Shown here: in pieces, positions 57,945 through 64,000 of the stretch
Layout: every line of letters starts with the position of its first letter
Position numbering within the stretch: position 1 is the stretch's first letter
DNA from: Chloroflexota bacterium
Lineage (GTDB): Bacteria; Chloroflexota; Anaerolineae; Promineifilales; Promineifilaceae
Reading direction: 5' to 3'
DNA: 64,000 bases
Assembly: GCA_022616275.1 (NCBI GenBank)
Contig: JAKEFB010000061.1
Span: 49,712-113,711 of the forward strand
Translations under genes and position numbers: made by a program
Notes under the pieces: generated by a model
Database searches by the model: none
What the model was told of the DNA's origin: nothing
Seen by the model: the letters and a program-made list of their open reading frames with translations, nothing else

Positions 57945-60900
57945 TCAGCTTGCATCCGTTGCCCGCCGCTCCTTGACCACCCGGATCCCCTCAAAGGCCG
58001 GCAAATTCCCCCGGATGCGCTCTTCCAGGATAACCAGGTCAACGTACAGGTCCAGGTAGGGATTCTCCTGTTCCGTAACCGGCCCCTCGCCGCCCATCCC
58101 CAGCCGCTCCCGCCAGCCGGGCGGTTTGGGGGATGGCCTGTATGGCTCAAATAACTGTGCCGCCAGGAGCATAAAGGCGCGGGCCTCCGCTCGTTGCGGA
58201 CTATCCCATCGCCGGCCGGACAGGATGTCTGCCAGACGGTCGGCTCCTTCCAGGAAGGCGACGAGCGTATAAGCACTTTCGACAAAACGGATGAGGGCGC
58301 GGTCGAGGTCGAAGGCGCGGTCGAGGTCGAGGGCGCGCTCGAGAGCGCGGTCGCGGGCGCGGTCGCGGTCGCGGTCGAGGTCGAAGGCGCGGTCGAGGTC
58401 GAAGGCGAGGGCGCGGGCGCGGTCGAAGGCGCGGTCGCGGTCGCGGTCAAGGTCGAGGGCGCGGTCGCGGTCGCGGTTGAGGTCGAAGGCGAGGGCGCGG
58501 TCGCGGTCGAAGGCGCGGTCCAGGGCGCGGTCGAGGGCGAGGGCGCGGGCAAGGTCGAGGTCGAAGGCGAGGGCGCGGGCGGAATCGCTTTCCGCCTGGG
58601 AGCGCAGAACGGCGGCCGGCAAAACCACCCGCTCGCCAACCGCCATCTCGCACACCCAGCCCGCTGCCGCCCTGGCCCAGTAGCCCAGGCTGGCCCCGGC
58701 CGGCAGCTTTTCGTTCTGGACCAGGGCGACGTCGCCTCGTTCATGTATCTCCGGCAGCCGGTAGCGCCAGGCCGGGTCGCCTTCGCGAGCGGTCAGCCAG
58801 GCGCAAAAAGCCTGGGCGTCGGCCGGACGCACGCCGGTGACGGGCAGCGCCCCCTGGCCCGGGGCAAAATGGTCACCCGGCCAGTGGTCCGGCCGGTACT
58901 CCTTACCGGCCGCCCGCTGCTCCTCCAGGAACAACTGGTACTCGGCCTGGCTGATGAAGGCCGGGTCTATGAAGCGGTTGTCGTCCACCGGGGCCAGCCG
59001 GCGCAGCCGGCGCAGCAGCAGGGCTTCGGCCACCGGCTGCCAGCGGTCCGGGTCGTCCAACCCACTGGAGATGATGGTCTGCAGCCGTTGTCGCACCGCC
59101 GGCGCCACTTCTCGGGCTTCTTCGTCACATTCCAGGGCCAGGAGGAGGGCAGTGACCGGTGGCGGGTCGCCGGCCAGGCAGGCCCGGATGACGGCCGTGG
59201 CCCTGACCTGGGCGGCGTAGAGGCGGATCGTCTCGTGCCACCATGGCTCGGCCACGTGGGTAACTAACTCGCTCTCCAACTGCTGGTCCTGGACGTAGAC
59301 GGCGGCCAGGTACTCCTGGAAGGTCAGGTGGGCAAAGCTGTACAGGCCGTTTTCCTTCTCCAGCAGCAGCCCGCTGCGGTCTTCAATGCCCTGCAAAAAG
59401 GCCGGGCCGGCTGTCTGCGGGCTGACCGCCCGGAGGGCCTCGCCAATAGCCGCCACGGTCGCCTCGCGGGACAACTCCCGCTTTTCCTGGACCATCATGG
59501 CGTAGGCCAACGGCTGAAGGACGCGCTGCCGCTGGGCCGGGGTCAGGTCCGGGGTAAGTCCCCTAGCCTGCTCCCGTTTGCCCAGGAAGACCTCGCAAAT
59601 CTGGGCGTACAGCTCCACCCGCCGGCCTGGCAGCGAGCTGTGGAAGCGGTGGACGGTGGCAATCATCGTCAGCAGCAGGGGGTTGGCAGCCAGGGCGGCC
59701 AGGTTGGGACTCTGGCGCAGCCGGCGCAGTAAATCCTCGGCCCCCTCCTCGGCGCGAATATGCACGCTGCGGTCATCCTTCTGCGAGCTCATGATTTCAT
59801 TGGCCAAATACCAACTAGCTACGAAGTGCTTGACCTGACCGCTGGTAAAGGGCCGGACTTCGAAAACGGCCGCTCCAGCCAGGGGGTTGGCCCGGTAGCC
59901 GTGCGGCCGGGAGGTGACGACGAAGCGGTTGCGGGCGTAAGCCACCACCTGGCGCTCGACCCAGGCGACGACCTGCTGCCGCTGCTGCGGGTCGGCCACC
60001 TCGTCCAGCCCATCCAGCAGCACCAGGCAGTGCCCCCGGCCCAGTTGCCGGTCCAGCCAGCCGGGCGGCGGCGCCGGCCCCCAACGGGCCAGGCCGATGG
60101 CAATGGCCTGGGGCAGGTTGTACGCACCACCGCCACCCAGGGCGCTCCCGGCCGGGGCCGCCGCCCGCAGCGCCCGCTCCAACTCCTCCCAGCCAATGTC
60201 CGACCGTGTTCGGCGGCCGCGCTCAATCAGCGCCAGAATACGCCGGCGATCTTCCAGGTGTTCCACTAATGCCCGGGCCTTGCCCTGTTTTCCTTTGCCA
60301 GCCAGGTCGTCGTATTCTACACCCAACTCCAGGCATAACAGGCGCAGTTCGTCCAACTTCATTCGCTCGGCCAGTGTCCGGGCCAGCTCACCCAGTACAG
60401 CCCCGCGCCGCGCTTGGTGTGACTCCTTATCAGCCGGCGTGGTGACCCCTTCTGCCAGGATGGCCTGGACGTGTTCGCGCAGGAAGAGCAAGACTGGCAG
60501 CTTATCTGGAGCGTTGGTCTGGCGACGCCCTTTCCGGCCGCCGGCCAGGGCCAGGGCGACATGCTTGAGCAGCGTCGTCTTGCCGCTGCCCGGCGGGCCG
60601 ACGAGCACCAGCGGCCGGCCGGCCATCTGTTCGGCGGCCAGCAAGGCCCAGATGGTATGTCGCCCCTGGCGCAGTTCGGCCGGCACGGTGGCCACGGCCG
60701 CCTGCTGCGGCGCCCGGGCGTCCAGACTCAGCTCGACAAAGACCTGGGCCAGGGCCAGGTTGTACGGTCCCTGGACGCTGAGCCCCTTGACGTCGAAATA
60801 TTGGTGGCGGTCTATGATGTATTGGCGGTAGTGGCGACCGTAGCCCCAGCCCCACGCCGGCCGGCGAAAGCGAACCACAATGTTGGACTTCTCGTCGCCG

Positions 60901-61031
60901 ATGAACGTGCCCAGGAAAGCCAGTGTTGCTCCCAGCAGGGCCAGCAGTGGCTCAAAACCAGGATCGTAGATGAGCCAGCCCAGGGCAATGGGCCAGGCAA
61001 TAAGGGTAATGGCACGGCCGATAAGACGCAT
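57945..61031 (-). CDS. Membrane-anchored NACHT NTPase with inserted effector-associated-like segment, FGE-like domain and Asp-Arg repeat
   Basis: This 1028-residue protein has one or two N-terminal membrane helices (about 6-45). Walker A GPPGSGKTT lies at 145-153 and Walker B LVLLDGLDEV at 337-346. Between them sits KLDELRLLCLELGVEYDDLA to about 272, an effector-associated-domain-7-like segment like the N-terminus of the 31.9-kb NACHT protein. A helical arm and a formylglycine-enzyme-like domain (ISQAEYQLFLEEQRAAG, LPVTGVRPADAQAFCAWL) follow, then about 100 residues of RALDLDRA/FDRDRA repeats (about 813-913). STAND proteins of this type sense infection and trigger an effector. No frameshift is seen. 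Confidence 0.85.
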   Translation of the reverse strand: MRLIGRAITLIAWPIALGWLIYDPGFEPLLALLGATLAFLGTFIGDEKSNIVVRFRRPAWGWGYGRHYRQYIIDRHQYFDVKGLSVQGPYNLALAQVFVELSLDARAPQQAAVATVPAELRQGRHTIWALLAAEQMAGRPLVLVGPPGSGKTTLLKHVALALAGGRKGRRQTNAPDKLPVLLFLREHVQAILAEGVTTPADKESHQARRGAVLGELARTLAERMKLDELRLLCLELGVEYDDLAGKGKQGKARALVEHLEDRRRILALIERGRRTRSDIGWEELERALRAAAPAGSALGGGGAYNLPQAIAIGLARWGPAPPPGWLDRQLGRGHCLVLLDGLDEVADPQQRQQVVAWVERQVVAYARNRFVVTSRPHGYRANPLAGAAVFEVRPFTSGQVKHFVASWYLANEIMSSQKDDRSVHIRAEEGAEDLLRRLRQSPNLAALAANPLLLTMIATVHRFHSSLPGRRVELYAQICEVFLGKREQARGLTPDLTPAQRQRVLQPLAYAMMVQEKRELSREATVAAIGEALRAVSPQTAGPAFLQGIEDRSGLLLEKENGLYSFAHLTFQEYLAAVYVQDQQLESELVTHVAEPWWHETIRLYAAQVRATAVIRACLAGDPPPVTALLLALECDEEAREVAPAVRQRLQTIISSGLDDPDRWQPVAEALLLRRLRRLAPVDDNRFIDPAFISQAEYQLFLEEQRAAGKEYRPDHWPGDHFAPGQGALPVTGVRPADAQAFCAWLTAREGDPAWRYRLPEIHERGDVALVQNEKLPAGASLGYWARAAAGWVCEMAVGERVVLPAAVLRSQAESDSARALAFDLDLARALALDRALDRAFDRDRALAFDLNRDRDRALDLDRDRDRAFDRARALAFDLDRAFDLDRDRDRARDRALERALDLDRAFDLDRALIRFVESAYTLVAFLEGADRLADILSGRRWDSPQRAEARAFMLLAAQLFEPYRPSPKPPGWRERLGMGGEGPVTEQENPYLDLYVDLVILEERIRGNLPAFEGIRVVKERRATDAS
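58291..58590 (-). repeat. In-frame 6-bp repeat encoding an Asp-Arg-rich tract
   Basis: About 300 bases built from GGTCGA, GGTCGC, AGGCGC and GGGCGC hexamers (plus-strand reading). Unit length is a multiple of three, so expansion or contraction changes protein length without shifting the frame. Confidence 0.85.
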
Positions 61032-61087: not shown

Positions 61088-61261
61088 TCATGCCGCCATA
61101 TACCGGCCGTCCTCCCCCACCCTTGCTTGCCCCAGCATCTCCAGCATTTCCAGGATTTCGTCGTCCCGCTCGACTCGTTGTATAGTCCAGTAGCTTTTAT
61201 GAAAGAAAAGTGTAATAACTCGGGTCCCCGACACGAAGATTGCAACTTCAGCGACGAAATA
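61088..61261 (-). pseudogene. C-terminal fragment of a protein, possibly YqaJ-type exonuclease-like
   Basis: A 57-codon open frame reads FVAEVAIFVSGTRVITLFFH, KSYWTIQRVERDDEILEMLE and MLGQARVGEDGRYMAA before its stop. The IQRVERDDEILEMLE helix looks like the end of a YqaJ-family nuclease, but the motif is short. The upstream DNA has lost coding character and lies in an AT-rich stretch. It suggests a gene cut away when the right-hand island inserted. Confidence 0.35.
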
Positions 61262-61470
61262 TTAGTTGAAATTGGGTGTTACTTTCTCTATACTGTTCTG
61301 ACAGGAACGGGACTCTATGTGTTGCAGAGCAGTGGGGAAAATCTAGTTTATTCTGTAGATGATTCAGAAGAAACATAAGACTGACAAGTATCATAGCATC
61401 TATAAAATTGGTGACATATCAGTGTGCGAATCTATGAAGGAGTAAAAACCGAAGGCTTTTTAACCCCGCC

Positions 61471-61499
61471 GTGCGCCCGCACTTATGATGCGGGCGCAC
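61471..61499. ncRNA. Strong GC-rich hairpin in the AT-rich gap, possible structured RNA
   Basis: GTGCGCCCGCA (61471-61481) and TGCGGGCGCAC (61489-61499) form a perfect 11-bp stem with loop CTTATGA. A second stem, CCCC/GGGG around GTATATAAA, follows at about 61518-61535. No T-tract follows, so a terminator is not obvious. The rest of 61262-61580 shows no convincing gene. Confidence 0.35.
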
Positions 61500-61580
61500 A
61501 GGTCCTCGACCGTCGCCCCCGTATATAAAGGGGACCGGGGAGTTGCCAAATAAGAAAACGAGTATTTTGGATTATAGCAT

Positions 61581-62405
61581 ATGACTTCGTTAGTAGCATG
61601 GGTTGGTGTTGACTCTCGTGGCCCGGCATCAATTTACCTTGTGAGTGATAGCAGAATCTCGTGGGGGAGTGGCCAAGTCTGGGATTACGGGCGTAAACTA
61701 TTCACTTCTACAAAATATCCAGATATCTTGGGATATTATGGTGATGTCCTGTTTCCCTCACAAGCGTTAGGACGGGTTATTGACTTCATAGATGCAGATC
61801 TACTATTAGATACGGGCGACTTACCTAGAGTCCGGCACGAGAAAATCGCAACAGTAATTAAGAGTTCATTGAAAGACTATCCCCTAAATCAAGTTACAGC
61901 AAAAACTTTCACTATAGTATACTGTACGCGTGAAAACGAGGGAATGGCGGCAAATTTTCATCTTTCGTCGCTAAAATGGAGCAGTGCAGATGGTTGGAGG
62001 GAGGAATGGTTACCTATTCCCTCAAAATCAGGCATAATCCGAAGTTTCGGAAGTGGCGAAAAACCATTCGCAAAATGGTATTCTCGGTGGAACAACACTA
62101 AAGAAGGTCGAACCAGTCGCAGCGTTTTCAGTGCTTTCTGCGATGCTCTTCATAGTAGTGAGGATAAGCTGAGTGGAGGAGCACCTCAACTGGTAGGAAT
62201 TTACCGGAAAGACATCGGTAAGACTTTCGGTATTATCTACAATAATGAACGGTATATTTTTGGTCTTCCCGTTACAGAATCAGACAAGCTTCAAACACTA
62301 GAATGGCGGAACAGTCTGTTTGAACGGTGTGACTGGCACACGAAAGAACCTTTGCAAGACGTGCAACGTCATAAACGCCCAAGAGGGCTTGGCAACACTT
62401 TGTAA
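61581..62405 (+). CDS. Putative Ntn-hydrolase with N-terminal Thr (proteasome/HslV-like)
   Basis: The 274-residue protein starts MTSLVAWVGVDSRG, then SIYLVSDSRISWGSG. Thr2 after the initiator Met, a first strand, and an Asp in VSDSR match the start of HslV and proteasome beta subunits, where Thr is the nucleophile and Asp supports it. GYYGDVLFPSQALG and FTIVYCTRENEGMAANF continue the sandwich fold. It could be a peptidase or amidase activated by removal of Met1. AT-rich, unlike the core genome. It lies 81 bases upstream of the Met-Gly gene. Confidence 0.5.
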   Translation: MTSLVAWVGVDSRGPASIYLVSDSRISWGSGQVWDYGRKLFTSTKYPDILGYYGDVLFPSQALGRVIDFIDADLLLDTGDLPRVRHEKIATVIKSSLKDYPLNQVTAKTFTIVYCTRENEGMAANFHLSSLKWSSADGWREEWLPIPSKSGIIRSFGSGEKPFAKWYSRWNNTKEGRTSRSVFSAFCDALHSSEDKLSGGAPQLVGIYRKDIGKTFGIIYNNERYIFGLPVTESDKLQTLEWRNSLFERCDWHTKEPLQDVQRHKRPRGLGNTL

Positions 62406-62486
62406 GCAGATTTAGTGCGTCAAAGTTGATAATCGGCCTTAGTGAGAGTAGTGAACTCCTGAAAACCAGAAATAAAGGGGGTTAAT

Positions 62487-63290
62487 ATGGGTCATATTAA
62501 ACTTGGAACCATACCAAAATCCAAGAAATGGAGTGTCGTAGTCTCTGAGGTAATGGGGGAGGGTGGAGCCGGAAGTTCCAAATTGCTTACCGATGATGTA
62601 GAGCACATCGCTTCTAAAACTATTGAGGCAGCTCAAGGGGGGTTAAAGCAAGCTATTAACGACGCGGGGCTCCAATACACTTTCTACTTGCTCACTCAGA
62701 TTGTTTTGTTGGCTCGAGAAAAAGACTGGTATGAAAGTTTGCCACGCCTCGGTATACGAATTTCAGGTCATAATACACTGTTTGACTTAACTGCAGAAAT
62801 GCAGGCAGCTATAGACGACTACCTATCAAGTCAAAACGCTCAAACTGATATAAGCGAAATTGCCCAAAAAGCAGCTGGGGAGGCTGTGTTTGCCCTTGCT
62901 ATACCAAAGGCCTTTACCCTGTTTGGTGGTAGTGGGGAGGAGTTGAGACTTGCAATTAAGTCTCTGTCTACCAAAGCGGGCTTTGCACAACTAACTCAGG
63001 TTTTCTTTGGCCGATTTATCGCTCGTTTTCTCAACTTCTACCTGAGCCGTATTACGGCAGCAGAAGTTGACAGCACACGTCTACCGCAGGCAAGTGATAT
63101 TTCAGAGTTTAATAAAACATTGGAAAAACACTGCGAGCAAAGTGCGAGAATAGTCAAGGATTTTGGTGGGGAGTGGTATTCAAAAACAGAATACTTAGAG
63201 GGCATTAATCTTGACAATACAGCACGATTTGTTGCTGTTGCTCTGAAAAAACTACAAGCGGAACTAGAACAACAGAGGCAGAGGCAATGA
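62487..63290 (+). CDS. Met-Gly-starting protein of unknown function next to a QueC-like enzyme
   Basis: The 267-residue, mostly helical protein begins MGHIKLGTIPKSKKWSVVVS and contains GEGGAGSSKLLTDDVEHIAS, GLQYTFYLLTQIVLLAREKD and FFGRFIARFLNFYLSRITA. AAAGGGGG lies a few bases before the ATG. Its stop overlaps the start of the QueC-like gene (ATGA), so both are made together. I do not recognise a named family. The Met-Gly start is notable because QueC-like defence enzymes have been linked to modification of N-terminal Gly in partner proteins; whether this is a substrate is inference. Confidence 0.6.
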   Translation: MGHIKLGTIPKSKKWSVVVSEVMGEGGAGSSKLLTDDVEHIASKTIEAAQGGLKQAINDAGLQYTFYLLTQIVLLAREKDWYESLPRLGIRISGHNTLFDLTAEMQAAIDDYLSSQNAQTDISEIAQKAAGEAVFALAIPKAFTLFGGSGEELRLAIKSLSTKAGFAQLTQVFFGRFIARFLNFYLSRITAAEVDSTRLPQASDISEFNKTLEKHCEQSARIVKDFGGEWYSKTEYLEGINLDNTARFVAVALKKLQAELEQQRQRQ

Positions 63291-63952
63291 TTCAACCGCG
63301 CCTATTCCTCTGTAATGGGATTAGCTCCACAGATTATAACTTGCCACACGAGGGGTATCGTCTGGTAGAACTAGATTCAAACCATGAAAGCCATAACCTT
63401 AATGTCTTCATCCAGCTTGAAAATTTGACAAAGGTTTTTCAAAAACACCTTTCTCCACGCCTTACAGATTTGCTTGAGATCGCTGCTTATATATACACGG
63501 GTGACTGCGCCACACCACGTGGCACTCAATGGACTGATCAAGATTCTACTGAAGCATGGGAGCGCGAGTTTAGGTTCGTTATTCCAGTACGGGATCCGAA
63601 TTTTTGGTCTAAGGATGAGGTTAAGAAACTCCTCCTTCAGCTCTTATCTTTCCTATCCAATGACAAGTACAGTTTTGAATTTCCAGAATTAACCCAGAGG
63701 CGTTCCAAGCAGCTCTATCTCCAATTCTCTGATAGGGAAGACTGGCCTTTCTACGGGGTTGACCGAATACTGATGTTCTCTGGTGGTCTGGATTCACTAG
63801 CCGGCGCTGTTGAGACGGCTTCTAAAGATGAAAAATTAGTGCTTGTCAGCCACAGATCATCTGCGGTAATGGACAAAAGGCAACGTCAATTATTTGACAA
63901 GTATACTGAACCCCAGAAACTGGACCACAGGCTAAGGTGGATAGTTGTATAA
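63287..63952 (+). pseudogene. QueC-like (QatC/Cap9-type) enzyme gene, truncated by an insertion sequence
   Basis: Residues 1-155 form an N-terminal region without known motifs. RILMFSGGLDSLAGAVE (161-177) is the PP-loop ATP site of QueC-type 7-cyano-deazaguanine synthases, in the variant used by phage-defence systems such as Qat and type IV CBASS. The natural protein should continue some 150-200 residues, with a Cys-rich zinc site. Here gene sequence ends at about residue 206 (DKY); the last 15 codons come from the end of an IS3-like element. The protein is probably inactive in this strain. Confidence 0.7.
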
Positions 63953-64000
63953 TCAACCAATTCTGTGGAGGTTAAAAATGTCGCAAAAACGGACACGGCA
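63907..64000 (+). mobile_element. Left end of an IS3-family-like insertion sequence
   Basis: From 63907 the sequence TGAACCCCAGAAACTGGACC has the look of an IS3-group terminal repeat (TG start, CCC..A..TGGACC). About 70 bases inside lies TGGAGG and an ORF beginning MSQKRTR, a typical IS3 OrfA start. The element runs out of the window. Confidence 0.6.
63978..64000 (+). CDS. Start of a probable IS3 OrfA transposase (partial)
   Basis: Only MSQKRTR is visible, behind TGGAGG with 6 bases spacing. Basic, Arg/Lys-rich openings of this kind are usual for the HTH-bearing OrfA of IS3 elements. The rest lies outside the window. Confidence 0.5.

Follow-up and report, generated by a model that had tools for sequence, protein, structure and literature searches.

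Three open reading frames lie in a row on the forward strand at the end of contig JAKEFB010000061.1 from a Chloroflexota bacterium (assembly GCA_022616275.1). Do they form one system? We analyzed 64,000 nucleotides of this contig (the window). A first-pass annotation, made from the sequence alone, had proposed a three-gene unit of a candidate N-terminal nucleophile (Ntn) hydrolase, a protein that begins with Met-Gly, and a QueC-like enzyme; we call their products P0001, P0002, and P0003. We found that the last two genes are a damaged remnant of a two-gene QatBC-type module. This pair is a divergent variant of QatBC, a relative of the anti-phage Qat system (qatABCD), and is widespread across many phyla. 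The features are:

61581..62405, + strand: P0001, 274 amino acids, starts with Met-Thr; candidate proteasome/HslV/Anbu-like Ntn hydrolase; a neighbor that is not conserved with the pair.
62487..63290, + strand: P0002, QatB-like protein that starts with Met-Gly-His (MGH), 267 amino acids; putative N-terminally modified partner.
63287-63952, + strand: P0003, a 221-amino-acid open reading frame with SGGLDS, as read in the window, including its repeat-derived end.
63287..63901, + strand: 5' part of the QatC-like gene, which matches PADLOC's QatC model and can be aligned with intact relatives; it breaks ~35 codons past the SGGLDS ATP motif.
63902..64000, + strand: end of an insertion-sequence-like repeat, with an open reading frame that begins at 63979; this repeat interrupts the QatC-like gene and closes the contig.

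The pair is conserved. Searching genome contigs with P0002 alone confirmed no relative. A plasmid search with P0003 led to a pair on a Leptospira plasmid, whose first protein starts with MGHERLG (vs. MGHIKLG in P0002). Aligning P0002 with this protein led to two loci in a viral collection, and with those added, the alignment found 65 loci in bacterial genomes. A hidden Markov model (HMM) found the MGH protein in 66 of these 67 genome and viral loci (L084 had no match), and in 63 of the 66, a QatC-like frame begins within 600 bases after the MGH gene (the exceptions are L070, L078, and L085). M-G-H is invariant across the 35 aligned members, which are full-length proteins picked from 68 loci. 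So the proposed pairing of a Met-Gly protein with a QueC-like enzyme holds up. The closest Met-Gly protein to P0002 (53% identity) is at locus L021. Within the Chloroflexota, the MGH protein is present in 6 of 400 genomes, including the window's genome; the other five loci are four intact pairs and one frameshifted pair. The organisms in our tree of the enzymes represent nine phyla and candidate division KSB1, and the spirochaete plasmid and the Chloroflexota are additional. Among the literature matches listed, no title or beginning of an abstract describes this two-gene variant.

The enzyme had been recognized as QueC-like, as in Qat, and it is indeed of the Qat type. P0003 matches the QatC models of PADLOC (E = 2.1e-28) and NCBIfam (E = 1.6e-27); the NCBIfam score of 96.5 bits is below the cut-off of 280 because P0003 is a fragment. 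The available text of PMC13329287 describes a set of QatC motifs for QueC cluster 2, and for most of this set, conservation across 52 relatives is complete or at least 90%. The T/S-R-T arrangement, which we matched to the threonines of QatC in the available text of PMC13279940, is kept (54 relatives). The zinc motif differs (HCGxCSQCxDRR vs. CGxCxPCxxRR). The window's fragment retains the D..R..W.R, SGGLDS, and D-Y-F motifs, the last in a slightly different form (Asn before Asp, where Gly is usual), and the 3' motifs are gone. In a tree with a small canonical sample, some long branches, and an unresolved root, one branch with support of 97/97 separates the 54 enzymes of this clade from 7 canonical QatC proteins.

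Many of these enzymes carry an additional C-terminal domain. Among the 52 relatives, 10 have a DpnII/MboI-type restriction endonuclease domain (PF18742), which is also matched weakly by PADLOC's helical restriction endonuclease models (Ago Class II set), and 2 have Trans_reg_C (PF00486). Another 29 have a GYRL-type tail that resembles OmpR winged helices (a resemblance found with our own pattern), and 11 fit neither the domain models nor this pattern. The QatC-like protein of L021 matches PF18742, and three of the four intact pairs from Chloroflexota have a tail like L021's, by pattern. Therefore, the window's gene probably carried an L021-like tail once, judging from these sequences. In a Roseomonas plasmid (L091, 2845-4799), a QatC-like enzyme that has SNGLDS in place of SGGLDS follows a different small protein, and its gene adjoins ImmA/IrrE and Shedu genes; this is perhaps another QatC-type variant.

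The MGH protein resembles QatB in its predicted structure. It is small, with an all-helical, QatB-like predicted fold and an N-terminus without predicted structure, and VIA-align showed QatB. Sequence comparison gave no link between the MGH protein and QatB, and Foldseek gave no significant match, with QatB absent from the best 50. As in QatB, the unstructured Met-Gly N-terminus includes a conserved Trp, but MGH (35/35 here) stands in place of the MGTS of canonical QatB (8/8), and the tail is much shorter. P0002 had no match to the CD-NTase (cGAS/DncV-like nucleotidyltransferase) family in Pfam, PADLOC, or NCBIfam searches.

In the window, the QatC-like gene is broken. The window's end is the contig's end and lies inside this gene. 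A repeat begins at ~63902, and five further contigs from the same assembly end in 89-91 bases of it at 100% identity; in the three of these contig ends that we read, the identical sequence runs right to the contig edge. The 221-amino-acid frame enters the repeat and stops at 63952. Because the sequence from ~63902 is common to these contig ends, the final ~16 codons and the stop are repeat-derived. Most intact QatC-like relatives are ~590-645 amino acids long (as stop-to-stop frames). In other words, the proposed third gene exists as a frame with SGGLDS, but it is incomplete, and the 3' end of the frame is repeat sequence. The 3' half was sought in the genome's own assembly (listed completeness 98.25%, contamination 5.5%) by a profile search and a half-protein search, and neither turned it up; a deletion and an assembly gap would look alike here. 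In a Qat locus on a Moraxella plasmid (L092, 3339-5897), the qatC-type gene is likewise split around a transposase that is annotated as IS3 family.

Intact pairs often lie next to integrases. The 109 nearest flanking genes (from crude gene calls) include 21 Phage_integrase, 9 D5_N, and 8 N6_N4_Mtase, a setting that marks the pair as cargo of mobile elements; another 5 are DAP_epimerase. One contig with the pair reads, by eye, as a prophage. The pair and its integrase may make up nearly all of a very small integrative element. In L031, L035, L037, L043, L044, L048, and others (many of them from Rhodobacteraceae), a convergent gene of ~350 amino acids lies 3' of the pair. The pairing, the motifs, the predicted fold, the fused domains, the link to integrases, and the broken state of the window's copy are established by computation.

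As the first-pass annotation stated, the window's three genes are AT-rich and on the same strand, P0002 and P0003 overlap by 4 bases, and the proteins have the Met-Thr start, the Met-Gly start, and the SGGLDS motif. The GC content is 0.44-0.45 over 61201-63600, vs. 0.58-0.73 in the preceding 7.2 kb, and this low-GC stretch, with the damaged pair and the hydrolase-like gene, was probably acquired. Just upstream, on the - strand, a 1028-amino-acid open reading frame (57945-61031) resembles a NACHT-type NTPase by its Walker-A (GPPGSGKTT) and LLDGLDE motifs; near its C-terminus, short Ala/Leu/Asp/Arg units are repeated over a long stretch (both by eye).

What is P0001? It had no match at E ≤ 1 in Pfam, PADLOC, or NCBIfam. 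Its seven aligned family members all have Thr or Ser at residue 2 (with starts that we chose), and by eye, it shares the SDSR and Lys spacing of HslV, Anbu, and the proteasome beta subunit. In its structural model, the order of strands and helices resembles an Ntn fold, with low confidence (predicted local distance difference test score 50.8, predicted template modeling score 0.48). The top six Foldseek matches are proteasome or Anbu entries, with TM-scores of 0.19-0.28 and a best E of 0.044, which is not significant. Neither is hhalign against HslV/Anbu (best E = 0.08), where the first 61 residues are in register. Overall, the Met-Thr start of the proposed hydrolase is confirmed, and its modeled Ntn fold is plausible but unproven; the similarities are suggestive only. 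Unlike HslV, Anbu, and the proteasome beta subunit, the relatives that we found lie in plasmid records (six, of which five were examined) and on two viral-collection contigs; another viral scan added no locus to these two. Of 301 genomes from the phylum, only the source genome has P0001. The relatives' neighbors include a SIR2-HerA operon (24.7% identity), HEPN-Toprim, and DUF3800. In a Paracoccus plasmid (L012, 2538-6822), a P0001-family gene directly follows the SIR2 and HerA genes, which raises the possibility that this family serves as an accessory in several defense systems. In three other loci (L008 6001-7559, L009 6001-7673, and L010 6001-7513), the P0001-family gene is followed, after ~200 bases, by a gene for a protein of 175-218 amino acids that matches no Pfam or PADLOC family.

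In the proposed three-part system, the hydrolase would process the modified Met-Gly protein or act as its executioner. The adjacency, strand, and low GC content that the genes share fit this idea, and so do the candidate defense genes (SIR2-HerA and HEPN-Toprim) that adjoin the hydrolase family elsewhere. But there are 81 bases between P0001 and the MGH gene, and hydrolase and pair were not seen together elsewhere: the hydrolase is absent from 73 MGH loci (65 from genomes, 2 viral, 1 on a plasmid, and 5 from Chloroflexota), and neither an MGH nor a QatC-like gene is near P0001 relatives in 7 loci, counting homologs detectable by HMM at E ≤ 1e-3 and with short flanks in some loci. A lack of the hydrolase in homologous loci was one outcome that the first-pass annotation itself had named as refuting its proposal. 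We therefore rejected the three-gene system, which is very improbable.

Nor is this likely to be an ordinary qatABCD locus whose other genes were lost or missed. The QatC catalytic and zinc motifs, the QatB-like fold, and the order of the adjoining genes are those of Qat, but the enzymes form their own branch, the partner begins with MGH instead of MGTS, and some members' QatC is fused to nuclease or DNA-binding domains. Furthermore, we recognized no KAP-family QatA gene upstream of the pair, by eye, in 21 gene tables (17 + 4), and KAP is not among the 25 of 52 neighbor families that were listed. (In the window, the gene upstream of the MGH gene is P0001, which has no PADLOC or NCBIfam match. 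As for QatD, the contig ends inside QatC, and TatD is missing from the same 25 families.) We give this explanation hardly any credence. A somewhat better alternative, which we still consider unlikely, is that the pair serves metabolism or regulation rather than defense, as a module in which a QatC-like enzyme with a transcription-factor-type domain modifies its partner to control genes. The GYRL-type tails and Trans_reg_C domains would suit such a role. The restriction endonuclease domains that take their place in other members would not, nor would the pair's patchy distribution over many phyla, beside integrases and on a prophage-like contig.

We think it likely that the locus is a damaged QatBC-type anti-phage module, that the Ntn-hydrolase-like gene beside it in the low-GC stretch is unrelated to it, and that intact pairs work as follows. 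The MGH protein would bind the QatC-like enzyme; Met1 would be removed, and Gly2 would enter the active site of QatC and there be joined to a carboxylate activated with ATP. The enzyme's own C-terminal output domain (a DpnII/MboI-type nuclease, an OmpR-type winged helix, or another domain) would then be licensed, by the modification or by infection, to act on DNA. With a fused output domain, the pair may be able to do without QatA and QatD as separate genes. We infer the modification of the N-terminal glycine, and the gating that would follow, with type IV CBASS (cyclic-oligonucleotide-based anti-phage signaling system) and Qat as natural models; a role in phage defense is suggested by the pair's family membership. 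As described in the available text of PMC13279940 and PMC13329287, type IV CBASS also combines a QueC-family enzyme (Cap9) with a Met-Gly substrate protein. But the pair has no CD-NTase, its partner is QatB-like, and its enzyme is of the long QatC type (mostly 590-645 amino acids) while Cap9 is short. Also, the pair's enzyme has a Thr pair where Cap9 has the Tyr/Asp that read deazaguanine. As for the DpnII/MboI-type domain, what sets it apart here is its fusion to a QueC-family enzyme.

Which carboxylate might be used? The chemistry of QatC is stated as open in the available text of PMC13279940, and carboxydeazaguanylation is proposed in that of PMC13329287. We searched 25 genomes, those of 24 hosts plus that of the window, for deazaguanine synthesis genes. 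QueD (PF01242) was found in 13 of these 25 genomes and QueE (TIGR04508) in 10. A second QueE model (TIGR03365) matched 5 of the 18 genomes searched (four at 1e-101 or better, and one weakly, below the cut-off). In total, 11 of the 24 hosts have a QueE-like gene, which fits the use of deazaguanine in those hosts. Eight of the genomes that carry intact pairs (L031, L034, L037, L042, L043, L055, L063, and L065) gave no match to QueD or to either QueE model, although the completeness of these draft assemblies is not listed and, among 14 control genomes, the two QueE models match just 8 and 9. Six of the eight were searched for full-length canonical QueC, and none has it (there was one partial weak match, and otherwise only QatC-like proteins or nothing). 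The window's genome has canonical QueC, and QueD and QueE were not detected. In the eight hosts, carboxydeazaguanylation cannot easily rest on the host's own synthesis; uptake of deazaguanine from outside is possible.

A bolder reading, in which we have less than even confidence, is that the pair is a self-contained two-gene QatBC-type immune module of many phyla, whose QueC-family enzyme brings along, by fusion, a domain that cuts or binds DNA, and that in at least some hosts, a group other than host-made 7-deazaguanine is joined to the partner's N-terminal glycine, which would be a new protein modification.

The interest of these results lies in the variant itself and in its presence in hosts without detected deazaguanine synthesis. 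Intact pairs in bacteria without detected QueD or QueE make it possible to test the co-substrate without cellular deazaguanine. The output step is unknown for Qat, and the nuclease or winged helix that is fused here gives a lead to it. Two QueC-based immune systems are named in the available text of PMC13329287, and the pair would make a third architecture beside them.
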